Source: Clostridiales bacterium
GTDB lineage: Bacteria > Bacillota > Clostridia > Christensenellales > CAG-138
NCBI GenBank assembly: GCA_012838425.1
Contig: DUPG01000010.1
Location: 68,194 to 132,193, forward strand
Direction of reading: 5' to 3'
Length of the DNA stretch: 64,000 nucleotides
Shown: in pieces, positions 41,885 to 55,221 of the stretch
Position numbering within the stretch: the stretch's first letter is position 1
Layout of the letters: each line of letters starts with the position of its first letter
Notes under the pieces: model-generated
Database searches by the model: none
What the model was told of the DNA's origin: nothing
Seen by the model: the letters and a program-made list of their open reading frames with translations, nothing else
Translations under genes and position numbers: made by a program

Positions 41885-42624
41885 CAAAAAAAGCTACTTT
41901 GCTTATACTGGCAACTGCTATTATATTAACTGCGGGCTGTGTAAATAATGGCTCCGAGAACGGCAGAATTACGCCTCAACCCATTGAAACGAACAGCACA
42001 GAGCTTGCAACACCGTTAAGCACATTCGGCACAAATATTGATGTTGAGGTAATAGCGCATACATCGTATTATTTTGCGAACGAAACCGGCAATCAGATTT
42101 ACTTTGCCATTGAGTATAAGAATTCGGGCGATTGCCCGTTGATTGTTAACAATGTGTCTGTTAAGTTTCGTGTCAACGATGCCGAATACAGCAAGGACTT
42201 TGAGCCTGTTTCATATAACTACTATGTTGTTTTTCCAAATGAATCCGGCTACATAGCTATATGGACTGATGATTTATACTCGAATGGTGCTGAAAATGTG
42301 AATATTGAAATTATCGATGTATCGTTAGACGCTCTGCCGAAAATACCTGAACGCAATTTAGTTGAAGTCAAAAATGTTAAAATCGTACAGAATTTCGCCG
42401 ATTTTGCAACCGTTACAGGCGATATTGAGCTTGGCAGCACTGATTTTACCGCTTGCACAGTTTTCTGCGCCTTTTATGATGAAGCAAATGCTCTGTTGGG
42501 CGTGTGGTATTTCAGCATATTTGATGATACAGAAAGCTTCACAACTCAGCTTATCAGCTTGCCTATCCCTGAGTTAGCACAAAAGACAAAATCAATTAAA
42601 GCTATTGGTTTCGGTATAGACTGA
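41881..42624 (+). CDS. Lipoprotein of unknown function, FxLYD-like C-terminal part
   Basis: Lipobox TAGC; beta-rich NVKIVQNFADFATVTGDIELGS..FCAFYDEANALLGVW. Confidence 0.55.
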   Translation: MTKKATLLILATAIILTAGCVNNGSENGRITPQPIETNSTELATPLSTFGTNIDVEVIAHTSYYFANETGNQIYFAIEYKNSGDCPLIVNNVSVKFRVNDAEYSKDFEPVSYNYYVVFPNESGYIAIWTDDLYSNGAENVNIEIIDVSLDALPKIPERNLVEVKNVKIVQNFADFATVTGDIELGSTDFTACTVFCAFYDEANALLGVWYFSIFDDTESFTTQLISLPIPELAQKTKSIKAIGFGID

Positions 42625-43925
42625 TGGAATACATTCCTGTTTCGTTACCCGAAATGATGGAGCATAGAGAAAAGCGCAGCAAACGCACTGCGGAATTGCT
42701 TTCCGAGTATAAAAGCACCGTTATATGTATGTCAATGAACTTCATTGGCGAATACAAGGTTCTAAAGCATTCAAGACTGATTTTTAACATTTTCTGTCAT
42801 AAGGTATTAGAAGCTGCAAATATAGTTTTTTTTGAGAAAAAACATAGTCATTGTGGTGACTACGCCCACTTTGTAAGCAACGGCTCCCCTGAATATGTAA
42901 AATCAAAAATGCGTCAAATAGAGGAATCGACCGAAGTAGGGCGGTTGTTTGATATTGATGTGTTCTATGAAATTGAAAATGGTATGCCTATACAAGTTCG
43001 CAGAGACGAACCGCGTAAATGCTTGCTGTGCGACAAAAGCGCTGTCGAATGTGCGCGAAACAGAACTCATGGTATAGAAGCAGTACGCGAGGAAACGACC
43101 AATATTATGCGAAGATACATAGCAAGTCTAATATCCGAATGTGCCTATAACGCACTGATTTCTGAGGTTGAAACCACACCTAAGCCCGGACTGGTCGACA
43201 AAAACAACAACGGTGCTCATACGGATATGAACATTCGTTCGTTTTATGCAAGTTCATTGGCAATCAAGCCTTATTATTATGAAATGGCTATGCAAACCTT
43301 CAAAGGTATTGATGAATCTATGTCCACAAAAGCGCTTATGCAGAGCTTACAAGTTATCGGTCACACGGCTGAAAAAGCCATGTTTGAAGCTACAAAAGGC
43401 GTAAACACGCAGATTGGCGAAATTTATACGATTGGTTTGCTTTCTTGCGGCGCAATATTAGCTTTAGAGAAATTGACAGGCTTCGACACAATATCACAAT
43501 ACGCACAACAACTTGCTTTATCGATAAAAACTGACAATTCGCCGTCATTCGGCGCAAGATATGAGGCTGAGAACGCATTTCCAAACATTATGAACGCTTA
43601 TAAACGAATAGAAGCGCTTTGCAATGAATTCAGCTTCAACGAAGCATGCGTAATTGCTTTGATTGAAACGATGCTGACAGTTGATGACACAAACATATTA
43701 AGACGCGGCGGCGATGACGGATTAAATTTCATGCGGCAACGCGCAAAGCAAATACTTGATTTGAAATCGATTTCAGAAATACTCAAAGCCACATATGAAT
43801 TCGATATGCAGATGATTGAAAGTAATCTGAGCCCCGGCGGCTGCGCAGACATTTTAGCGGCATCGATATTCATGCTGTATATAAAGCAAATGCTGTTTGC
43901 ATATGAGCCTGAAAATCAAATTTGA
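42624..43925 (+). CDS. citXG: Fused CitX (holo-citrate lyase ACP transferase) - CitG (triphosphoribosyl-dephospho-CoA synthase)
   Basis: CitX-type RRDEPRKCLLCDKSAVECARNRTHG; CitG-type SEVETTPKPGLVDKNNNGAHTDMN, GVNTQIGEIYTIGLL, LSPGGCADILAASIF. Confidence 0.88.
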   Translation: MEYIPVSLPEMMEHREKRSKRTAELLSEYKSTVICMSMNFIGEYKVLKHSRLIFNIFCHKVLEAANIVFFEKKHSHCGDYAHFVSNGSPEYVKSKMRQIEESTEVGRLFDIDVFYEIENGMPIQVRRDEPRKCLLCDKSAVECARNRTHGIEAVREETTNIMRRYIASLISECAYNALISEVETTPKPGLVDKNNNGAHTDMNIRSFYASSLAIKPYYYEMAMQTFKGIDESMSTKALMQSLQVIGHTAEKAMFEATKGVNTQIGEIYTIGLLSCGAILALEKLTGFDTISQYAQQLALSIKTDNSPSFGARYEAENAFPNIMNAYKRIEALCNEFSFNEACVIALIETMLTVDDTNILRRGGDDGLNFMRQRAKQILDLKSISEILKATYEFDMQMIESNLSPGGCADILAASIFMLYIKQMLFAYEPENQI

Positions 43926-43993: not shown

Positions 43994-44036
43994 GTAATTG
44001 TACTGAGAAGTACTACCCTTATTATTGGAGCTAAAT

Positions 44037-45146
44037 ATGAATGACGACTATTCAACACAATCGCATAAAAAATACACTCAGCTATTAAGAAAGCTGCAAA
44101 AAGAGCTACCCGATTTTTGCGCAGAGTTTTTCAGAGGTATTGATTCTCGAACTACTGCACTGACGCGTTACGCATATGCAACTGACTTCAACTTGTTTTT
44201 CACATACTTAATCAATGAGCACGAGAAGTTCAAAGATAGAAAATCGACGCGTGATTTTTCGGTACGCGATTTAGATTTGGTGTCCCCTACTGATATTGAG
44301 ATGTACTTAGATTATCTCTCGCTTTACACGCGCGTAATCAACGGAAGCGAAATAGCTACTATGAACAAGGAGCGTGCTAAGGCTCGCAAGCTTGCGTCTT
44401 TGCGTTCGCTATATAAGTATTTTTATAAGAAGGAAAAGATATTCACGAACCCTCCTGCTATGGTTGATATTCCGAAGATTCACGAGCAGCCTATAATTCG
44501 TTTAGACCCCAATGAAATTGTTGACATTCTCAACATTTGCGAAAAGCTTGAAGGGCTTACTCCGCATCAGAAAAAATACAATGAGAACACGCGCATTCGT
44601 GATATAGCGATAATTACTCTGTTTTTGGGAACGGGAATCCGCATAAGCGAGCTTGTTGGCATTGACATTGACGACATTAACTTTATATCAAACGAGTTTG
44701 CAGTGATTCGCAAAGGCGGAAAGCGCGACGTGCTTGTGTTCGGACCCGAAGTGCGCGAGGCATTGCTTGAGTACCTGTTGCTTCGTGAAAGAATGGTTGC
44801 AAAGGAAGGACATGAAAACGCCCTATTCCTGTCTTTGCAGATGAAGCGAATCACGGTTCGCGCCGTTGAGAATATTGTGAAGAAGTTTGCGCGCGCTGCT
44901 GTTCCGCAAAAGCATATAACACCACACAAGCTGAGGAGCACATTCGGCACAATGCTTTATGCTGAAACCGGAGACATTTACTTGGTTGCCGACGTGCTTG
45001 GTCATAAAGACGTAAACACAACAAGGAAACACTATGCGGACATATCACGAGAACGCAGGAGAGTCGCCGCTGAGGTCGTAAGACTTAGGGAGGATTCAAA
45101 ACCCGAACCAAAAACAAAAAACAAGGATAGTGATTCAGTTAGTTGA
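44037..45146 (+). CDS. Tyrosine recombinase, XerS/XerC-like
   Basis: Catalytic motifs GTGIRISELVGIDIDDIN, KGGKRD, HKLRSTFGTMLY, LGHKDVNTTRKHYADI; long XerS-like N-terminal domain. Confidence 0.9.
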   Translation: MNDDYSTQSHKKYTQLLRKLQKELPDFCAEFFRGIDSRTTALTRYAYATDFNLFFTYLINEHEKFKDRKSTRDFSVRDLDLVSPTDIEMYLDYLSLYTRVINGSEIATMNKERAKARKLASLRSLYKYFYKKEKIFTNPPAMVDIPKIHEQPIIRLDPNEIVDILNICEKLEGLTPHQKKYNENTRIRDIAIITLFLGTGIRISELVGIDIDDINFISNEFAVIRKGGKRDVLVFGPEVREALLEYLLLRERMVAKEGHENALFLSLQMKRITVRAVENIVKKFARAAVPQKHITPHKLRSTFGTMLYAETGDIYLVADVLGHKDVNTTRKHYADISRERRRVAAEVVRLREDSKPEPKTKNKDSDSVS

Positions 45147-45150
45147 GAAG

Positions 45151-45188
45151 ATATTTACGCTTGACAATGTAAATATTAGTACTATACT
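45151..45188 (+). promoter_or_regulatory. Putative hydrogenase operon promoter TTGACA-N16-TATACT with overlapping dyad
   Basis: -35 45161-45166, -10 45183-45188; ATATTTAC-N10-GTAAATAT (45151-45176) brackets the -35. Confidence 0.6.
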
Positions 45189-45255
45189 TTATTTGCTCAT
45201 GGAGTTTATTCGCCATATATTATTTAGGGGTAACTGTGGATAGCAGGAGGAACTA

Positions 45256-46668
45256 ATGAAGGAAATACTTATGCTCGCGGCTATTTGCGTTCCTTTGCTG
45301 GGCGCGTTTTTAATTCCCATATTCGGGAAAGCTATCACAAAGCTGCGAAATGCCCTTGCCTTAATATTTGTATTGACCGCTCTTTTATGCTCAATACTAT
45401 TATTGCCATATGCAGTGGCAGATAACGACGCTGTGATTCATATTTACTTGCCGCTTGGGCTAAGCATAGGCTTTCATGCTGATGCATTAGCCGTTTTTAT
45501 GGCTATAACCTCTACGCTTGTAAGCTCTGTAATCGTGCTTTACTCCTTCGGCTATATAAAGGATTACCCTAATCAAAACGAATACTACCTGATGATATGC
45601 CTGTTTATAGGCGCTATGATGGGCTTGGTTTATTCATCAAATCTGATACTGCTTTATATGTTTTGGGAAATAACCTCCTTCTGTTCATGGCGTTTAATTG
45701 GCTTCTATCGCGACAGAACTGCGCTCATACGTGCCAACAAGGCATTTATAACAACCGTATTGGGCGCACTCATTATGCTTATAGGCTTCATAGGGATATA
45801 CGCAGAAACCGGAACATTTGATTTATCCGTCATAAAGGGCTATACCCTACCCTCTTGGATAGTCGCTGTAATATTGGTTGGAATTTTGACGAAATCTGCC
45901 ACGTTCCCATTGCATAACTGGCTGCCTGACGCCGGAGTAGCCCCCTCCCCTGTTACATCGCTATTGCACGCGGCAGTATTGGTGAAAATCGGGTTGTATG
46001 CTTATGTACGACTATTTGTTGTTGAGTTGAACATTGACAAGGTTTTCGAAACCATTGTTCCGGTAATAGCTGCTGTTAGCGCACTGTTAAGCGCAGGTGC
46101 CGCATTAAAAGCGACGGACATAAAGCGCGTAATCGCCTACTCTACTATCAGCCAGATCGCGTTTATACTTCTTGGGCTGTCCTGCGGAGTTGAAGTCGGG
46201 CTTGCGGGAGGCTTGCTATACATATTAGCACATTCAATAGCAAAGGGCGGTTTATTCCTCTGCGCAGGAATTGTCGAGCACGCCCTACACACAAAGGATA
46301 TGAGCAAGATGGGCGGACTTATAAAAACTATGCCTGTTACGGCAATATCTTGCCTTTTCTGCGCATTGTCGGTAATGGGAATACCGCCTTTCGGTGGATT
46401 CTTTGCGAAATTCTTGGTAATTGATGAAATTGTATCCGCAGGGCAAATAACATTAGGAATTATATTTATCATAGGCGCAATTATGACGGTGTTATACTTA
46501 GCCCGTATGTTTTCTCTTGTATTCTTGGGCGAAGAAAAAGCTAAAGCGCACGAAGGCACAAAGGTTATGTTGGCTTCGGTTATTATATTGGCAGTTCTCT
46601 CGCTATTTATGGGCATACTCATAAACTTGCCGACAGAATTAGTTAAAATGGTGGGAGGTTTGCAATGA
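45256..46668 (+). CDS. NuoL/MrpA-type proton-translocating membrane subunit of group 4 hydrogenase
   Basis: SATFPLHNWLPDAGVAPSPVTSLLHAAVLVKIGLYAYVR, KRVIAYSTISQIAFILLGLSCG. Confidence 0.9.
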   Translation: MKEILMLAAICVPLLGAFLIPIFGKAITKLRNALALIFVLTALLCSILLLPYAVADNDAVIHIYLPLGLSIGFHADALAVFMAITSTLVSSVIVLYSFGYIKDYPNQNEYYLMICLFIGAMMGLVYSSNLILLYMFWEITSFCSWRLIGFYRDRTALIRANKAFITTVLGALIMLIGFIGIYAETGTFDLSVIKGYTLPSWIVAVILVGILTKSATFPLHNWLPDAGVAPSPVTSLLHAAVLVKIGLYAYVRLFVVELNIDKVFETIVPVIAAVSALLSAGAALKATDIKRVIAYSTISQIAFILLGLSCGVEVGLAGGLLYILAHSIAKGGLFLCAGIVEHALHTKDMSKMGGLIKTMPVTAISCLFCALSVMGIPPFGGFFAKFLVIDEIVSAGQITLGIIFIIGAIMTVLYLARMFSLVFLGEEKAKAHEGTKVMLASVIILAVLSLFMGILINLPTELVKMVGGLQ

Positions 46669-48527
46669 TAAACGCATTATTCGATATTATCAGCAATAAT
46701 ATGTTACTTATATTTATTTTGCTTCCTGCATTTGTCGGCTTAATTATGCTATTCATAAGAAAGCGCTTTGCAATACAGTTAGCTGTTCTACTGTTATCAT
46801 CAATAATTAACTTAATAGCCGCTTATACGCTGTTTGCGTCTGAAAGCTTTTCGTATGTTATACCCTTTGCGAGCTTCGGGCTTGACATAGTGCTTGTTTC
46901 AAATGAATTATCATCGCTGTTTATAATGCTGGTTGCGGCTATGTTTTTATTTGTGTGCTTATATTCAGCATTCTACTTGAAGCATAAAAAGCAATTTAGT
47001 GTTTTTATGCTTTATATGTATATTAGTCTTGCGATGCTTAACGGCGCAATACTTTCTGATAGCTTAGGAATTATGCTGTTTTTCTGGGAAGGGTTACTAT
47101 GCACTTTGCTCGGAATGCTGCTTATCAACAACACGTCAAAACCGAAAGCGGCTATTAAAGCATTAGTCCTCTCGGGAACCGCGGACTTACTGTTAATGCT
47201 CGGTATTATACTTACCGCGTATCAAGCAAAGACTATGCTTATAAACGAAATAACGCCCATAAAAATTCAAGGTTTTGTGCCGACATTGGGCTTTTTCTGT
47301 ATGCTCTTCGGAGCTATCGGCAAGGCAGGCTCTATGCCCTTCCACAGCTGGATTCCCGAAGCCGCGAACGACGCAACTACTCCTTTCTTGGTTTCTTTCC
47401 CCGGCGCTTTGGAAAAGTTGGCGGGCTTTTATCTTGCAGTAGTTGTAACGACTAAGCTTTACGACCTGCGGCCGCACTCGACGATAAGCAATATAGTTAT
47501 GACAATAGGCGTGCTGTCGCTTCTGTTTGCAGTTTCAATGGCATTGATTCAAAAGGATATGAAGCGGCTTTTATCGTATCACGCAATAAGCCAAGTCGGC
47601 TACATGGTGTTGGGGATTGGCTCAGGATTGCCTATAGGAATCGCAGGTGCTGTATTCCATATGCTTAATAATGCTGTCTTTAAGAGCTGCTTATATATGT
47701 GCGCCGGCTCGATTGAGTCACAAACCAGTACAACCGATTTGAAGAAGTTCAGCGGCGTCGGCAAATGCATGCCCATAACCTCAATCTGCTTTACTATTTG
47801 CGGCTTGGCTATTGCAGGCGTGCCGCCCTTCTGCGGGTTCTTCTCGAAGGAGCTGCTTTTCGACGCCGCGCTTGAGAGCAATATTGTTTTCTATATAGGC
47901 GCATTGATTGGCGCATTTATGACAGCTGTTTCATTCTTAAAAATGGGCAGGGCAGCGTTTTTCGGCAAACTTAAGCTCCCCGAAGAAAAGAAAATTTCAG
48001 AATCAGAGGCGGGAATGCTTGTTCCCATGATTGCATTGTCCATAATCTGCATTATATTCGGCGTATTCAACACACTTCCGCTTGATACGCTTATTAACAA
48101 GGGCTTAATGTTTGAGAAGTCCTTCTCCGGCTGGCCTCATTCGATACTGCTTGTTGTAATTTCGCTTGTTGTATTGTGTATAGCGGTGCTTGACCACCTT
48201 TACGGTTCAAAAAAATCAGGCAGTGCTTTGAATGCCGCCGACCATATCCACTACGCTCCTGTGCTGAAAACGATATACTCTATCGCAGAAAGAGGCTATT
48301 TTGACTTGTATAATCAGATGAACGCTTTGTTTAATGTATTCGCGAAAATCTGCGTTATGTTTGAGCGCGCTGTCAGCTTTACATATGATACAATCGCTGT
48401 AAATGCGGCATTATTGCCCGGAAAGGTTATGCGCAGGTACCACAACGGGTCTTTGGGAAGATACCTGTTCGCCGCACTTTGCGGAGTTGTAATAATAATA
48501 CTGATTTTTATAGCAGTATTGGTGTGA
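46665..48527 (+). CDS. Second NuoL-type antiporter-like subunit with C-terminal extension
   Basis: AGSMPFHSWIPEAANDATTPFLVSFPGALEKLAGFYL, KRLLSYHAISQVGYMVLGIGSG. Confidence 0.9.
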   Translation: MINALFDIISNNMLLIFILLPAFVGLIMLFIRKRFAIQLAVLLLSSIINLIAAYTLFASESFSYVIPFASFGLDIVLVSNELSSLFIMLVAAMFLFVCLYSAFYLKHKKQFSVFMLYMYISLAMLNGAILSDSLGIMLFFWEGLLCTLLGMLLINNTSKPKAAIKALVLSGTADLLLMLGIILTAYQAKTMLINEITPIKIQGFVPTLGFFCMLFGAIGKAGSMPFHSWIPEAANDATTPFLVSFPGALEKLAGFYLAVVVTTKLYDLRPHSTISNIVMTIGVLSLLFAVSMALIQKDMKRLLSYHAISQVGYMVLGIGSGLPIGIAGAVFHMLNNAVFKSCLYMCAGSIESQTSTTDLKKFSGVGKCMPITSICFTICGLAIAGVPPFCGFFSKELLFDAALESNIVFYIGALIGAFMTAVSFLKMGRAAFFGKLKLPEEKKISESEAGMLVPMIALSIICIIFGVFNTLPLDTLINKGLMFEKSFSGWPHSILLVVISLVVLCIAVLDHLYGSKKSGSALNAADHIHYAPVLKTIYSIAERGYFDLYNQMNALFNVFAKICVMFERAVSFTYDTIAVNAALLPGKVMRRYHNGSLGRYLFAALCGVVIIILIFIAVLV

Positions 48528-48539
48528 TGAGGTGCTGAA

Positions 48540-49997
48540 ATGAGAGCTTTGCAATATGTATCAATGTTATTCGTAATAATTCCATTAACAGCACTGATTG
48601 TATGCAGTCTGATAAAGCGTTCAAGACAAAATGCTGCTTTCTACTTATTAAGTGCGTTTGCTGCTGCACAAGTCGGTCTGGCGCTTTACGGGCTTATGCT
48701 GTTTAACAGTCTAAATATAAGCGAGTATTCTTTCGGCTTTCACATTACTCAGGCTGTTGCAGATGTATTCACACTTAAGCCCGCTTCACTTGTAATGCTT
48801 TTGTGCATTGGCTTGGTGTCTTTCACATCATTATTAGTGGCATATAAAACAATGCCTGCGAATAAGAAGCTGTCTTACCTCAGGCTACTGTCGGCGCTGA
48901 TTATCGGCATGAACGGCATTGTGCTTGTAAACGACTTATTCACAATGTATCTGTTCATAGAAATCATAGGCATTTCAAGCTTCGTGCTGATTTCAACCAC
49001 GAAAACGGAAGAAGGGCTTGAAAGCGCATTTATTTATCTTGTTATGTCCTCATTGGCAAGCATAATGCTGCTTACCGGTTTGGCATTTATATTCATGCGT
49101 ACTGGCAGCTTGAAGTTTGAATACCTCATAGCAATCAACAACACTTCAGCAGAAGTCTCTCAGAACGCTTTGACTTACCTCTCATACATTTTAGTGATCT
49201 CAGGGCTGCTTATTAAGACAGGCGCAGTGCCGTTCCATAGCTGGCTCCCCGACGCGCACCAAAGCGCAGACACTTCTGTTTCGGTATTACTGAGCGGCAT
49301 TGTAATAAAAGCCGCAGGTGTATATTGCTTAATGAGAGTAACAGATATTTTCGGAAATCTATACGCGATACGGCTATCGCTTGCCATATTAGGAGTAATC
49401 ACTATAGCAGTAGGCGCAATGTTTGCATTACATCAAAACCACTTTAAGCGAATATTAGCCTATTCGAGTGTAAGCCAAATGGGCTATATGCTGCTTGGTA
49501 TAAGCGCGGGCGGAATACTAGGGTTCATAGGCACTATGCTGCACATTTTCAATCACGCCGTATTCAAAAGCACACTATTCACTAATGCCGCGGCGCTGCA
49601 TGAAGAAGTGCATACACTTGATATTGATAAATTAGGCGGACTGCAAAAGCAAATGCCCATAACAGCGACAACCTCGCTTATTGCGTTTTTATCTACAGCC
49701 GGCATACCTCCCCTATCGGGCTTCTGGAGCAAGCTGCTTATTATAATTGCGTTATGGAAAGCTAACTTCATTGGCTTTGCCGCGGCCGCTTTGGTTTTAA
49801 GCATATTTACCGCCGCATACTTCCTGCGCTTACAGATGAATGTGTTCTGGGGACAAACTCCCGAGCATTTGCAGAGCATAAAAGAAGTAAAAGGCACTAT
49901 TCGTTTTGCTGAAATAATGCTTACTATTATAACTATTGCTGTGGGGTTGGGATTCCCCTTCATACTGCTTTTCTTAGAAGCAAGCGGTATAATATAG
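48540..49997 (+). CDS. NuoN/MrpD-type antiporter-like subunit
   Basis: GAVPFHSWLPDAHQSADTSVSVLLSGIVIKAAGVYCL, KRILAYSSVSQMGYMLLGISAGG. Confidence 0.9.
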   Translation: MRALQYVSMLFVIIPLTALIVCSLIKRSRQNAAFYLLSAFAAAQVGLALYGLMLFNSLNISEYSFGFHITQAVADVFTLKPASLVMLLCIGLVSFTSLLVAYKTMPANKKLSYLRLLSALIIGMNGIVLVNDLFTMYLFIEIIGISSFVLISTTKTEEGLESAFIYLVMSSLASIMLLTGLAFIFMRTGSLKFEYLIAINNTSAEVSQNALTYLSYILVISGLLIKTGAVPFHSWLPDAHQSADTSVSVLLSGIVIKAAGVYCLMRVTDIFGNLYAIRLSLAILGVITIAVGAMFALHQNHFKRILAYSSVSQMGYMLLGISAGGILGFIGTMLHIFNHAVFKSTLFTNAAALHEEVHTLDIDKLGGLQKQMPITATTSLIAFLSTAGIPPLSGFWSKLLIIIALWKANFIGFAAAALVLSIFTAAYFLRLQMNVFWGQTPEHLQSIKEVKGTIRFAEIMLTIITIAVGLGFPFILLFLEASGII

Positions 49998-50007
49998 AGG
50001 TGGAAAC

Positions 50008-50496
50008 ATGGAAGTAATAATAACAATTTGCTTAGGATTTATGCTTGTTTTTGCAATAGTGGCTGTGATGAACAAGAGCCTTCTGAAATCAGCTATTGCG
50101 CTTGCATTGGTAAGCATTTTCCTTGGAGTTATACTGTATCTGCTTACGGCAAAATGGGCGGCTGTGTTTGAGGTTTCGGTTTGCTCGGGACTTGTTACCG
50201 TAATATCCATAAGCGCCATAAGCCTGACGCACGAAGAAAAAGAGCAGCTTCAGAAAAAATACATGGACAAAAGGCGTATGGCTATGCTGCCCTATTTATT
50301 GATACTGTGCGGATTTCTGCTTGTGTTTATTGTGCTCACAGCGAAAATTCAGCTCCCGTATGATCAGTTGGCTGAACCTTCAACTGAAACGCTTAGCGAA
50401 GCCCTATGGGATAACAGACAGGCTGATGTTTGGGGGCAAATAATCATATTGCTTACAGGCGCATTTGCTGTTGTAACATTGTTTAAGGAGGCGTAA
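50008..50496 (+). CDS. Small multi-TM subunit, NuoJ/MbhDE-like position
   Basis: 162 aa, about five TMs: AVFEVSVCSGLVTVISISAISLT; C-terminal VWGQIIILLTGAFAVVTLFKEA. Confidence 0.55.
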   Translation: MEVIITICLGFMLVFAIVAVMNKSLLKSAIALALVSIFLGVILYLLTAKWAAVFEVSVCSGLVTVISISAISLTHEEKEQLQKKYMDKRRMAMLPYLLILCGFLLVFIVLTAKIQLPYDQLAEPSTETLSEALWDNRQADVWGQIIILLTGAFAVVTLFKEA

Positions 50497-50499
50497 CTT

Positions 50500-50808
50500 A
50501 TGAACTTCATAGAGTTAGCTATATTGACTACCGGCTTCTTGCTTATACTGGCAGGCTGTTACTGCCTTATGCGCACATACCATATAATAAAAATTCTCAT
50601 CGGAATTGAAGTGGCTATGAAGGCTGTTACGCTGTTTATAGCGTATGCCGCGCATATTAACGGTAAAATTGGCTTAGCGCAAAGCTTTATAATTACTATA
50701 ATAGTTGTTGAAGTTGTTGTAGCGGTTGTGCTTGCAGGAATAAGCCTTAACCTGTATAAAAAATATCAGAGCATGGACTTGCGAAACATCAGAAAGCTGA
50801 GGGGATAG
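50500..50808 (+). CDS. NuoK/MnhC-like subunit
   Basis: 102 aa, three TMs: IKILIGIEVAMKAVTLFIAYAA..AQSFIITIIVVEVVVAVVLAGISLNLYKKY. Confidence 0.85.
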   Translation: MNFIELAILTTGFLLILAGCYCLMRTYHIIKILIGIEVAMKAVTLFIAYAAHINGKIGLAQSFIITIIVVEVVVAVVLAGISLNLYKKYQSMDLRNIRKLRG

Positions 50809-50809
50809 G

Positions 50810-51151
50810 ATGGAGTTCATACTGTTTGCACCACCGGTTGTTTTTGCAATCTTTATATTGCTTTTACTGCTATTCTCAAGAAAGCTGAGCGAGTATTCGG
50901 CTCATAATGAAGAAAAGCATATATGCGACGACATAGAGGGGAACGCATACGCTTGCGGACAGCAAAATGTAAAGCACTATGTAAACCCCGATTACAGCCA
51001 GTTTTTCCCCTACGCGTTTTTCTTCACTATACTGCATGTGCTTGTGCTTGTGGTTGTAACCGCACCGAAGGAATCGGCAATACTGTCAATAGCATATATA
51101 GTTGCCGGAGCATTGGCTATGTTCGTTTTATTCAAAAAAGATGAAAGTTAG
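50810..51151 (+). CDS. NuoA-like membrane subunit
   Basis: 113 aa, three TMs, NAYACGQQNVKH and FFPYAFFFTILHVLVLVVVTAP matching the NuoA YECG..FY.RFY..A..F..FD..V pattern. Confidence 0.6.
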   Translation: MEFILFAPPVVFAIFILLLLLFSRKLSEYSAHNEEKHICDDIEGNAYACGQQNVKHYVNPDYSQFFPYAFFFTILHVLVLVVVTAPKESAILSIAYIVAGALAMFVLFKKDES

Positions 51152-51673
51152 GTGATTGCTGTGGGAATATTCAAAAAGCTAGTTAGCTGGGGACAAAAGA
51201 AATCGCCTTGGATAATTCACTTTAACGCAGGCGCATGCAATGGCTGCGATATAGAGTTTATCGACTCGCTTACACCCAAATACGATATTGAGCGCATAGG
51301 CATTCTGCAGCATGGCAGCCCACGCCACGCGGATATATTGATTTGCACAGGCGCTGTTACCTTACAAACGCGCGACAGGCTTATTCAGATTTACGAGCAG
51401 ATGGCGTCGCCAAAATATGTTATTGCTGTCGGTACTTGCGCTTGCACAGGTGGTATATTCAACGGCTGCTATTGCGTAATGGGCGGAATAGACACCACAA
51501 TTCCCGTAGATGTGTACTTGCCAGGCTGCGCTGTTCGCCCCGAAGCGGTTATAGACGCGATAGACAAACTGCTTAACTCAAACGACAAAGACAAGACAAA
51601 GAAAAAAGCTAAATCAGACAAGCAAAAAGAAGTCAGCGAAGAATCAAACGAGGAAAAAAGCGATGAACAATGA
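51152..51673 (+). CDS. Group 4 [NiFe]-hydrogenase small subunit (NuoB-like)
   Basis: HFNAGACNGCDIEFIDSLTPKYDIERIG, VGTCACTGGIFNG, YLPGCAVRPEAVIDAI; K/E-rich tail. Start may be the GTG at 51161. Confidence 0.92.
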   Translation: MIAVGIFKKLVSWGQKKSPWIIHFNAGACNGCDIEFIDSLTPKYDIERIGILQHGSPRHADILICTGAVTLQTRDRLIQIYEQMASPKYVIAVGTCACTGGIFNGCYCVMGGIDTTIPVDVYLPGCAVRPEAVIDAIDKLLNSNDKDKTKKKAKSDKQKEVSEESNEEKSDEQ

Positions 51674-52178
51674 AGAAATTATTGTAAGCAAGATATTCGA
51701 TAGGTTTGAGTTCGCGCGTGATAAAATTCATGTTCAAAAGCGTTTGCGCATAATCAGCGACCCGTTTTCGAGGGAAGAATTTGAGCAGATAATCGAATAT
51801 TTGCACGATGAACTGGGCTTCAAAATAGCTCACCATATAGTAGGCATTGACTATGGCGAGGATTTAGGCTTTATATATATGCTTGGCAACGATGAGCACA
51901 TAATATTCGCGCTTAAAGAGAAGGTAAGCAAGGAGAACCCCGAAATAAATTCAATGACTAAATACTATCCTTCGCTTTTAATGCACGAATTAGAGCTTGT
52001 TGACCTTTTCGGCGCGATTGTGAAAGACTTACCCGATGTTCCCTCATATCCCTTGCCGGACGGTTGGCCGAAAGGCAACCACCCCATGCGCAAGGATTGG
52101 AACCCAGCGTATTTCGACCACAAGACAATGACATATAATCCACCTGCCAAGGAAGTAAAGGAGGATGAAAAGCAATGA
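51663..52178 (+). CDS. NuoC-like subunit
   Basis: ELGFKIAHHIVGIDYGEDLGFIYML, LLMHELELVDLFGAIVKDLPDVPSYPLPDGWP; coupled between B- and D-like genes. Confidence 0.85.
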   Translation: MNNEEIIVSKIFDRFEFARDKIHVQKRLRIISDPFSREEFEQIIEYLHDELGFKIAHHIVGIDYGEDLGFIYMLGNDEHIIFALKEKVSKENPEINSMTKYYPSLLMHELELVDLFGAIVKDLPDVPSYPLPDGWPKGNHPMRKDWNPAYFDHKTMTYNPPAKEVKEDEKQ

Positions 52179-53434
52179 GCGATAACAGCAGCAACAGAAT
52201 TGTAATTCCATTAGGTCCTCAACATCCTGCGCTGAAAGAACCCGGCTCCTTCACATTGACGCTTGAAGGCGAGAAGGTTGTTAACGCAGTTATTGGCATT
52301 GGGTATAATCACAGAGGCTTAGAGAAAGCTTTAGAGAGCCGTACATATATCCAAAACCTATACATGATTGAGAGAATATGCGGTATATGCTCTCACACTC
52401 ACAGCGTTGCGTATTGCCAAGCAATTGAGGAGATGTGCGGAGTCGAAATACCCATGCGCGCAAAATACATTCGCGTAATAATAGCCGAGCTTGAAAGGCT
52501 GCACTCGCACTTGCTTTGGCTTGGAGTCGCGGCGCACGAGATTGGCTTCGATACGCTGTTCATGTATGCGTGGCGCGATAGAGAAATGGTATTGGATATG
52601 CTTGCCGAGCTATGCGGTAACCGCGTGAATTACGGCATAAACACGCTTGGCGGAGTACGCAGAGATATTGACGATAACGATGCGCACGAGATTAAGAAAA
52701 TACTTAGAGTACTGCATAATCAAATCAGTTACTATTTAGAATTGGCAACGAATGAGCCTACCTTGATTGCGCGTTTAGCAGATGTTGGCAAGCTGAATCA
52801 TGATGACGCGCTTAAATTCGGCGCGGTAGGCCCTGTTGCGCGCGCGGCAGGTATTGCAAATGATGTGCGTAAAATTGAGCCCTACGCCGCATACGACGAG
52901 GTTCCTGTAAATGTAATAACAGACGACCATGGCGATGTATTGGGCAGAACGCTTGTAAGAGTAAAGGAAATGCTTGAAAGCATAAGCATAATCCGCTATT
53001 GCCTTGACAACCTGCCCGCAGGTGAAATTCTTGCAAAGGTGCCGCGCAAGGTTCCCGCAGGCGAAATGATTTCGCGAACAGAAGCGCCAAGAGGAGAGAA
53101 CATACACTATATTAACTCCGACGGTTCTGACATTCCGTACAGAATAAGGGTTCGCGCACCATCTGAAGCCAACTGGCACGGTATGAAGCATATGTTAGAG
53201 GGCAGCTTTTTGGCTGATGTTCCTATCGCTATTGCTGCTATTGACCCCTGCTATTCCTGCACAGACAGAGCTATTTTTGTAAACTCCGATAACGGCGAAT
53301 CAAGGCTGTACGACTGGAAGGGTTTGCGTGAATACAGCATAAAATGGCATCGCGACAGGGGCTTGAACATAGCCGACATTCAAATACCTATGGCGAAAAA
53401 CTACATTCAGATACAGAGGAAAACGAATGATTGA
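52175..53434 (+). CDS. Group 4 [NiFe]-hydrogenase large (catalytic) subunit
   Basis: N-terminal RICGICSHTHS (52373-) and C-terminal IDPCYSCTDR (53240-53269): both CxxC pairs of the Ni-Fe site. Confidence 0.94.
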   Translation: MSDNSSNRIVIPLGPQHPALKEPGSFTLTLEGEKVVNAVIGIGYNHRGLEKALESRTYIQNLYMIERICGICSHTHSVAYCQAIEEMCGVEIPMRAKYIRVIIAELERLHSHLLWLGVAAHEIGFDTLFMYAWRDREMVLDMLAELCGNRVNYGINTLGGVRRDIDDNDAHEIKKILRVLHNQISYYLELATNEPTLIARLADVGKLNHDDALKFGAVGPVARAAGIANDVRKIEPYAAYDEVPVNVITDDHGDVLGRTLVRVKEMLESISIIRYCLDNLPAGEILAKVPRKVPAGEMISRTEAPRGENIHYINSDGSDIPYRIRVRAPSEANWHGMKHMLEGSFLADVPIAIAAIDPCYSCTDRAIFVNSDNGESRLYDWKGLREYSIKWHRDRGLNIADIQIPMAKNYIQIQRKTND

Positions 53435-54368
53435 AGCTTTGACTGCGTTATTTAAAATACTGATTTTTCCGGGGTTCATGTTCCTCACAACATACGGTAT
53501 GCTTCTGCAATTCTTGGATAGAAAAATCTATGCGCGATTGCAGAACCGCTTCGGACCGCCCTGGTATCAGCCGCTTGCAGATTTCCTAAAGCTTATAGGC
53601 AAGGAAACCATAGTGCCTACATTGGCTAACAAGGGTATGTTTTCTACTCTGCCCGTAGTTTCGTTAGCTGCCGTATCAACCGCTTTTGTATATATACCCA
53701 TTTATAGAATGCAAGCCTCTTTTTCATTTGAAGGCGACTTGATAATTGTGCTTTACTTAATGGCACTACCCTCTATAACCACCTTCCTTGCCGGCTGGTA
53801 TTCACGAAGCGTTTATGCGACAATTGGCTCTGTGCGCACGCTTACGCAGCTATTTGCATATGAAGTGCCTTTATTTGCAGCATTGCTGTCGCCCTCAATT
53901 ATTTCGGGAAGCTGGTCAATCAGCGGAATGGCTGAATTCTACTACCACAACCCTACATTGATACTCGTAAACCTGCCTTCAATGTTTATTGCGTTAATTT
54001 CTATACAAGGCAAGTTGGCAAGAAAGCCATTTGACTCACCAGAAGCGGAAACGGAGATTGTTTCAGGCGCATTCGTTGAATATAGCGGAAGGCTGTTGGC
54101 AATTTTCAAAATGTCCGTTGACTGTGAGCTTGTGCTGCTTATTTCGCTTGCCGCGGCGATATACATTCCTTTATTCACAAACATAATTGTACTTGATATT
54201 CTACTATACTTTGCGAAAACTCTTGTTTTGCTGTTTGCGCTTTCAATTTTCAAAGCGGCAATGGCAAGGCTGAGAATGGATCAGATAATAAACTTTTGCT
54301 GGAAGGTACTGACGCCATTGGCAATGTTCCAGATTATCATAAACCTGATTGTAAGAGGTGCGCTATGA
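53427..54368 (+). CDS. NuoH/HyfC-like membrane subunit
   Basis: MLLQFLDRKIYARLQNRFGPPWYQPLADFLKLIGKE; ARKPFDSPEAETEIVSGAFVEYSG. Confidence 0.93.
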   Translation: MIEALTALFKILIFPGFMFLTTYGMLLQFLDRKIYARLQNRFGPPWYQPLADFLKLIGKETIVPTLANKGMFSTLPVVSLAAVSTAFVYIPIYRMQASFSFEGDLIIVLYLMALPSITTFLAGWYSRSVYATIGSVRTLTQLFAYEVPLFAALLSPSIISGSWSISGMAEFYYHNPTLILVNLPSMFIALISIQGKLARKPFDSPEAETEIVSGAFVEYSGRLLAIFKMSVDCELVLLISLAAAIYIPLFTNIIVLDILLYFAKTLVLLFALSIFKAAMARLRMDQIINFCWKVLTPLAMFQIIINLIVRGAL

Positions 54369-54730
54369 AAATAAGGCTTCCCGGCAGAATTCTTATGAAA
54401 ATGTTGACGACGCTTGTCAGCAAGCCTGCTACCAACACAAACCCGTATGACGCGACAAATATTCCGAGCAAATATCGCGGGCGAATCGTATATGACTCCT
54501 CAACCTGCATCGGCTGCGGTATCTGTATGCGCGACTGCCCAACGAAATCTCTGCGTGTTGAAAACATTGGCACAAAAGAGAATAAGAAATTTATAATGCA
54601 CTATAGCTTGGGAAGGTGCATTTTCTGCTGCCAGTGCGTGGACTCGTGCCCCAAAAAGTCATTGTCGCAGACACGTGATTTCTTGTTAGCCACGACCGAC
54701 AGCTCGGATTTAGAGGAAATAATGCGCTGA
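54365..54730 (+). CDS. NuoI-like 2x[4Fe-4S] ferredoxin subunit
   Basis: STCIGCGICMRDCPTKSL and LGRCIFCCQCVDSCPKKSL; start reset from 54296 to ATG at 54365. Confidence 0.92.
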   Translation: MKIRLPGRILMKMLTTLVSKPATNTNPYDATNIPSKYRGRIVYDSSTCIGCGICMRDCPTKSLRVENIGTKENKKFIMHYSLGRCIFCCQCVDSCPKKSLSQTRDFLLATTDSSDLEEIMR

Positions 54731-55221
54731 TGAGCCTCGATTGCTTAAAAGAAAAAATCAAGCAAGCTGAAAGAATCGCAATTATGGGCATAGGCTCTGA
54801 GTTAAGGTCAGACGACGCCGCGGGTATGCGCCTTATTAACGAACTCAATTGCTTGGGGTTGAGTAACTGCGATAATGTGCGCCTACTCTATGGTTCGACC
54901 GCGCCTGAGAATTTTACAGGTGAAATAAAGGCATTTTCTCCCAATTTGCTAATACTCGTTGACGCAGCAAGCATGGGCTTGCAGGCAGGAGCAATCAAAA
55001 TAATTGAAAGCGATGAAATAATGGGGGTTACTTTTTCGACCCATATGCTTCCACTGCCTATTGTACTGAACTACTTGAAGCAGGAAGCGTCATTTGAAAC
55101 TGTTTTGATTGGCATACAGCCAAAGAGCACAGATTTCGGAATTGAGATTTCGGAAGAAGTGACAAATAGCGTTTCTGAACTTGCGATATTCCTATATGAT
55201 TCGATAATTGCTACTCGCTAA
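54730..55221 (+). CDS. Hydrogenase maturation endopeptidase (HycI/HyaD family)
   Basis: IAIMGIGSELRSDDAAGMRLINEL, LLILVDAASMGLQAGAI, STHMLPLPIVLNYL, VLIGIQPKSTDFG. Confidence 0.9.
   Translation: MSLDCLKEKIKQAERIAIMGIGSELRSDDAAGMRLINELNCLGLSNCDNVRLLYGSTAPENFTGEIKAFSPNLLILVDAASMGLQAGAIKIIESDEIMGVTFSTHMLPLPIVLNYLKQEASFETVLIGIQPKSTDFGIEISEEVTNSVSELAIFLYDSIIATR

Follow-up and report, generated by a model that had tools for sequence, protein, structure and literature searches.

The origin of complex I from membrane-bound hydrogenases is an open question, and the usual models (Mbh, Ech and formate hydrogenlyase) lack the full NuoA-NuoJ-NuoK junction. Hfo of Bathyarchaeia is an 11-subunit Fpo-like [NiFe] hydrogenase assigned to HydDB subgroup 4g, and Hfo-like clusters are present in Ca. 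Methanomethylicus and Pyrodictium delaneyi; its subunits correspond to 11 of those of Fpo/Nuo, and its authors saw in it a link to complex I closer than that offered by Mbh (Loh, Herve & Brune 2021, PMC7886697). Subgroup 4g is heterogeneous in structure and biochemically untested (PMC7886697); it also includes hydrogenases of Endomicrobium (PMC11257099) and of Omnitrophota, the latter described as Mrp-linked (PMC8542988). In Mbh, MbhI is treated as the ND3 counterpart (PMC10396290), its first transmembrane helix and the following loop corresponding to Nqo7/ND3 (PMC7684303). The operon analysed here lies in a 64,000-nt stretch (the window) of a Clostridiales bacterium (GCA_012838425.1, contig DUPG01000010.1, positions 68,194 to 132,193, forward strand). 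It very probably encodes a ferredoxin-linked, ion-pumping, energy-converting group 4 [NiFe] hydrogenase, most likely of subgroup 4g, with the full 11-subunit complex I core set (A-D and H-N).

The operon (positions 45256-55221) comprises 12 genes on one strand, mostly overlapping, in the order L-L-N-J-K-A-B-C-D-H-I plus a gene for a HycI-type protease (Table 1). All subunits except A were identified directly by Pfam and NCBIfam, and J additionally showed a weak match to MbhD, under the Pfam cut-off. D keeps both [NiFe] CxxC pairs (RICGICSHTH and DPCYSCTDR, read directly), and B carries GACNGCD, the CxxC motif of the proximal cluster, and lacks the tandem CC of NuoB; the enzyme is therefore a hydrogenase of group 4 type. 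Both cysteine pairs are present in every full-length D relative read, as is the CxxC motif in every B. The best solved relatives of D were MbhL (E 4.5e-126) and HycE, both ranking above all NuoD chains. The quinone-site tyrosine of Nqo4 (Tyr87) is aligned with a glycine in D, which has a 54-residue C-terminal tail beyond DPCYSCTDR. A complete maturation locus, hypA-hypB-hypF-hypC-hypD-hypE, is located on contig C7 of the same genome (L213:3251-8750), where HypD was assigned by profile and the other five genes by reading adjacent open reading frames (ORFs). The genome thus contains the set typical of group 4 [NiFe] hydrogenases, i.e. CxxC motifs in the large and small subunits, a NuoH-type anchor, at least one antiporter-like subunit, and an endopeptidase together with Hyp proteins, and the D and B encoded in the operon are not of the quinone-reducing type of respiratory complex I (without [NiFe] ligands and with tandem CC in B). 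These results agree with an earlier note made from the DNA sequence, which had described twelve consecutive ORFs encoding a [NiFe] hydrogenase rather than a quinone-reducing complex, with three antiporter-like subunits, J, K and a HycI-type protease. The Pfam search that it had proposed for NuoJ and NuoK was positive for both, and the protease exceeded the curated TIGR00142 cut-off.

Subunit A, the product of the gene at 50810, had been called NuoA-like in that note, with a profile search as the suggested check. The window protein alone gave no Pfam or NCBIfam match over threshold (12.7 bits for Oxidored_q4 vs a cut-off of 23.3), and its identity as NuoA was therefore drawn from its relatives, for which the check succeeded: 58 of the 66 A-family members matched Oxidored_q4 at E<=0.1 (best 8.8e-8), although only one (L111) exceeded the cut-off. 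When a 17-row profile of the family was searched against all PDB chains, the matches up to E 1 were solely ND3/NuoA/NdhC chains and MbhI (best E 0.0015), and a 66-row profile yielded 15 matches (E 0.0056 to 0.53), again to ND3/NuoA/NdhC or MbhI. Alignment of profile hidden Markov models (hhalign) between the A family and our own NuoA alignment covered the full length (104 columns, 96.0%, E 4.9e-9), whereas six other subunits of the operon, used as controls, gave no more than 26% and E 7e-4 or worse. The protein has three transmembrane helices (8-29, 65-84 and 90-112) and a conserved YxCG in the first loop. Its AlphaFold2 model, of moderate confidence (mean predicted local distance difference test score 79, predicted template modelling score 0.44), shows the NuoA topology of a helix, a long loop with YxCG and two further helices.

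The best Foldseek match of this model, NdhC of cyanobacterial NDH-1 (6khi_C), was not significant (E 0.79), and the first nine matches, none of which had an E under 0.79, included three further small chains (111-116 aa) from complex I or NDH entries. This weak structural support and the low Pfam score of the window protein would also fit an unrelated small membrane protein, in which case the complex would have only ten complex I-type subunits. Such an origin is very improbable, given the exclusive PDB matches of both family profiles, the contrast between the A family and the control subunits in hhalign, and the location of the A gene between K and B in all 72 testable loci. The product of 50810 is thus, on sequence evidence, a genuine NuoA/ND3 homologue, and a NuoA (Oxidored_q4) subunit, as in respiratory complex I, is present at the level of the family. 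The loop cysteine is nearly invariant in the family (YACG; C49 in the window protein), and it is the counterpart of Cys39 of ND3, which acts as the switch in the mitochondrial enzyme. The weak match of the A profile to MbhI is confined to the first 50 residues (the first transmembrane helix and the loop), which is consistent with the published correspondence of this part to Nqo7/ND3 (PMC7684303, PMC10396290). Because it is mostly missed at the Pfam cut-off, the NuoA of this hydrogenase family escapes automatic annotation.

In a phylum-wide sample of 399 genomes, a homologue of A was found in 16, including the window's own. Among the other fifteen, eleven have the gene order of the window (one cut by a contig end) and four the order J-K-L-M-N-A-B-C-D-H-I-protease. 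In a scan of 84,980 species, D had at least 579 relatives, and the loci of the 80 best were fetched. A is present in each of the 72 fetched loci in which K, B and D occur, and the set of twelve genes is complete in 48. Loci with a sufficient part of the cluster on their contig show the gene order of the window, except L144; in a few loci (e.g. L104 and L132), L1 was not separately recognized. According to the record titles, the fetched loci derive from Bacillota, Omnitrophota, Elusimicrobiota, Planctomycetota, Spirochaetota, Kiritimatiellota/Verrucomicrobiota, Margulisbacteria/WOR-1, Bipolaricaulota, Acidobacteriota, Myxococcota and one Bacteroidota metagenome-assembled genome (MAG); most are MAGs, and isolated odd phyla may be binning errors. 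As judged from these loci, the same 12 genes are arranged in the same order across bacteria of about ten phyla, a conservation far beyond chance. Loci of Endomicrobium/Omnitrophota (L151, L136 and L121), groups whose hydrogenases have been classed as 4g (PMC11257099, PMC8542988), carry this 12-gene cluster, which points indirectly to subgroup 4g. Antiporter-like genes beside bacterial 4g hydrogenases need not imply an Mrp-linked (Mbh-like) enzyme. L144 belongs to a second Bacillota type (L068, L069, L070, on the same contig as L144, and L071) with the J-K-L-M-N-A-B-C-D-H-I-protease order. The [NiFe] motifs are intact in its D, its L and M score above the subfamily cut-offs for NuoL and NuoM, and the J part consists of two ORFs in L068, L069 and L071. 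The operon has a patchy distribution in the taxonomic family to which the window's genome belongs: among 24 other genomes searched, G914 contains the full operon and G915 a more distant hydrogenase. Both horizontal transfer and repeated loss are possible explanations of this pattern.

All three antiporter-like subunits of the window keep the residues of the Glu144/Lys229/Lys399 type (Escherichia coli NuoL numbering), and these are also found in all 66 aligned family sequences, with exceptions limited to single substitutions, gaps or residues that could not be read. L1 groups with the NuoL/EchA type, yet does not have the C-terminal extension of NuoL; it keeps Glu/Lys/His/Lys, with His254 as in NuoL. 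Residues 12-618 of L2 match positions 3-612 of the 615-position NuoL profile NF005141, a range that takes in the segment forming lateral helix HL in NuoL. The sequences thus establish what the subunits are, that the residues for catalysis and pumping and the maturation machinery are present, and that the cluster is conserved.

No NuoEFG is encoded in the operon, as the earlier note had also observed, and ferredoxin is therefore the natural electron partner, which that note had likewise favoured. We infer assembly of the subunits into one complex, the use of ferredoxin, and ion pumping, and likewise the direction of the reaction and the coupling ion, along the following lines. Reduced ferredoxin would donate electrons to I with its two 4Fe-4S clusters; the electrons would then travel via the proximal cluster of B and form H2 at the [NiFe] site of D. 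Energy would be transmitted, as in Mbh and complex I, from the B/D/H/A junction via the J-K axis to the three antiporter-like channels N, L1 and L2, and the membrane arm would be braced by the lateral helix of L2. In the reverse mode, an ion gradient could drive the reduction of ferredoxin by H2, and the enzyme would overall be a reversible ferredoxin:H+ oxidoreductase that pumps ions. The genome also encodes pyruvate:ferredoxin oxidoreductase and RnfC, and no match to the NuoA family over threshold was found elsewhere in it. Several points weigh against this proposal. The operon itself contains no gene for the electron partner, and there is no biochemistry on any 4g enzyme (PMC7886697, PMC5037454). 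Three matches to [FeFe] hydrogenase catalytic domains were found in the genome beside the single [NiFe] enzyme, which makes the direction of flux through the latter less certain. Moreover, most of the taxonomic family lacks the operon, as does the one further genome of the genus that was searched (86% complete).

Phylogenetic trees, all of which were unrooted and did not include archaeal Hfo and Fpo, placed the subunits differently. In the single trees of B and D, every hydrogenase is on one side of a branch (95, 99). In the D tree, the window's family forms one group (SH-like approximate likelihood-ratio test support 90; 93 with the second type), and a long branch separates NuoD from this family and the other hydrogenases. 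In the H tree, the family, the second type and NuoH group together, excluding Ech, Mbh-like and Ehr sequences (99/97), but a single group of all hydrogenase H subunits was not rejected by the approximately unbiased (AU) test (p-AU 0.23); H thus appears to lean toward NuoH, not significantly. The B+D+H tree united the window's family with the second type (100/99), apart from Ech, Mbh-like and Hyf sequences (99/97). L1, L2 and N of the window's family form three clades of their own (support 100 each). In AU tests, neither a single clade of the family N with NuoN (p-AU 0.74) nor one-to-one orthology of L2 with NuoM (p 0.32) was rejected. In the second type, L is sister of NuoL (99), M of NuoM (96), and N, more weakly (83), of NuoN together with an Ehr subunit.

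It is possible, though short of probable, that the window's family and the J-K-L-M-N-A-B-C-D-H-I type represent the hydrogenase lineage closest to complex I, with NuoA and H derived from a common ancestor. The full NuoA, the single-gene J and K, the grouping of H with NuoH, the separation from Ech/Mbh/Hyf and the positions of the second-type L, M and N point in this direction, and the same argument has been made for archaeal Hfo (Loh 2021, PMC7886697). Against it stand the B and D trees, the unrejected joint group of hydrogenase H subunits, the separate clades of L1, L2 and N, which are not nested with NuoL, M and N, and the unrooted trees without Hfo or Fpo. The mixed affinities of the membrane subunits (L1 near NuoL/EchA, L2 and N in their own clades), combined with catalytic subunits that group with hydrogenases, could instead reflect a chimera, i.e. 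an ordinary group 4 module that gained a complex I/Mrp-like membrane arm independently of complex I; the structural heterogeneity of subgroup 4g (PMC7886697) would fit such parallel assembly. This alternative is rather unlikely: the identical 12-gene order over about ten phyla implies that any assembly is old, and the A subunits of the hydrogenase form a diverged family rather than recent copies of complex I NuoA, which was detected over the cut-off in 82 of the 250 genomes sampled from the phylum. The status of an intermediate on the way to complex I, which the earlier note had proposed, is thus plausible, but the phylogeny does not settle it: B and D group with the other hydrogenases, and L1, L2 and N form clades of their own. 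Common ancestry with complex I is compatible with the function of a ferredoxin-linked hydrogenase because it concerns origin, not function. A further step, that the family and its sister type are living descendants of a hydrogenase ancestral to complex I, whose membrane arm, NuoA included, would have reached its full form in an enzyme that still produced or consumed H2, is doubtful.

The features of the operon are summarized in Table 1. The putative promoter is the top one of 32 consensus matches in the region (24 +/- 5 in shuffled sequence) and lies within the 109-base gap before the first gene; it is a candidate based on consensus evidence. The most likely start of the I gene is 54362 rather than the start of the longest ORF at 54296. 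A gene for an XerS-like tyrosine recombinase (window 44025-45146) is located immediately upstream of the operon, and a single ORF at 42624-43925 encodes a fusion of CitX-like and CitG/MdcB-like domains (citrate lyase prosthetic group synthesis).

Table 1. Features of the hydrogenase operon (window coordinates) and [FeFe] hydrogenase matches elsewhere in the genome
Feature	Position	Strand	Evidence
Candidate sigma-70-like promoter, TTGACA-16-TATACT	45161..45188	+	11/12 consensus positions
Ribosome-binding site of L1, AGGAGG	45245..45250	+	Read directly
L1, antiporter-like, 470 aa	45256..46668	+	Pfam Proton_antipo_M; tree; key residues
L2, antiporter-like, 620 aa	46665..48527	+	End-to-end NuoL profile match; key residues
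N, NuoN/MrpD-like antiporter subunit, 485 aa	48540..49997	+	Pfam Proton_antipo_M; tree; key residues
J, NuoJ-like, 162 aa	50008..50496	+	Pfam Oxidored_q3, 39.7 bits (cut-off 33.2)
K, NuoK-like, 102 aa	50500..50808	+	Pfam Oxidored_q2, 54.9 bits
A, divergent NuoA/ND3-like, 113 aa	50810..51151	+	PDB profiles; Pfam on relatives; hhalign; AlphaFold2
B, hydrogenase small subunit, NuoB-like, GACNGCD	51152..51673	+	Pfam Oxidored_q6; motif in relatives
C, NuoC-like (30 kDa)	51663..52178	+	Pfam Complex1_30kDa, 66.5 bits
D, [NiFe] large (catalytic) subunit	52175..53434	+	Pfam Complex1_49kDa and NiFeSe_Hases; motifs; trees
H, NuoH-like membrane anchor	53427..54368	+	Pfam NADHdh, 235.7 bits; trees
I, NuoI-like, two 4Fe-4S motifs	54362..54730	+	Pfam Fer4_7 and related families
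HycI-type maturation peptidase	54730..55221	+	TIGR00142, 122.4 bits (curated cut-off 119.1)
[FeFe] hydrogenase matches	G000:C25:41258-42124 and G000:C26:12227-14452		Catalytic-domain matches, three in all

Compared with known systems, the operon shares the group 4 catalytic core B-C-D-H-I with Ech (4e) and Hyf/Hyc (4a), in whose clusters no A- or J-like gene was found. Ech is a six-subunit set with a single antiporter-like subunit, whereas the operon has three, and Hyf contains HyfB, HyfD and HyfF but HyfE in place of separate J and K. Mbh of Pyrococcus furiosus (4d) provides the best solved relative of D (MbhL) and, in MbhI, the ND3 counterpart weakly matched by the A profile. Past the shared loop, however, MbhI departs from the TM2-TM3 arrangement of NuoA (PMC7684303), and Mbh has one H+-pumping antiporter-like subunit (MbhH) and an additional Mrp-type Na+/H+ module (MbhA-C and F), which is matched by none of the twelve window genes. 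The 11-subunit complex I of anaerobes (Nuo A-D and H-N) consists of the same kinds of subunits, and its NuoH groups with the H of the window; the operon differs from it in the [NiFe] cysteines, the glycine at the quinone-site tyrosine, the HycI protease and the separate clades of L1, L2 and N.

Hfo and the operon share the complete Fpo/Nuo core of 11 subunits, among them A, J and K as well as three of antiporter-like type; both keep the [NiFe] motifs and lack the FpoF/NuoEFG input module. The statement in the earlier note that a NuoA-type subunit is missing from the group 4 enzymes known so far is contradicted by Hfo (PMC7886697) and by the MbhI-ND3 correspondence (PMC10396290), and its argument for novelty was anticipated in 2021, when Hfo with NuoA was published for Bathyarchaeia as a link to complex I. 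Searches of the open-access literature turned up no account of this 11-subunit composition for bacteria. Hfo, compared here by its published description, is archaeal and has an fpo/nuo-like gene order, whereas the window operon is bacterial and has the L-L-N-J-K-A-B-C-D-H-I + HycI order. The J-K-L-M-N-A-B-C-D-H-I order of the second Bacillota type is nearer to that of Hfo, and compared with the family of the window, this type seems to stand nearer to both archaeal Hfo and complex I. The operon is thus not the first of its kind; what is new is a bacterial variant, present in many phyla, with its own gene order and antiporter set, together with a sister type in Bacillota in which L, M and N lie near NuoL, NuoM and NuoN. 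A bacterial 11-subunit hydrogenase distributed in this manner provides a testable system for the coupling junction as it was before quinone.

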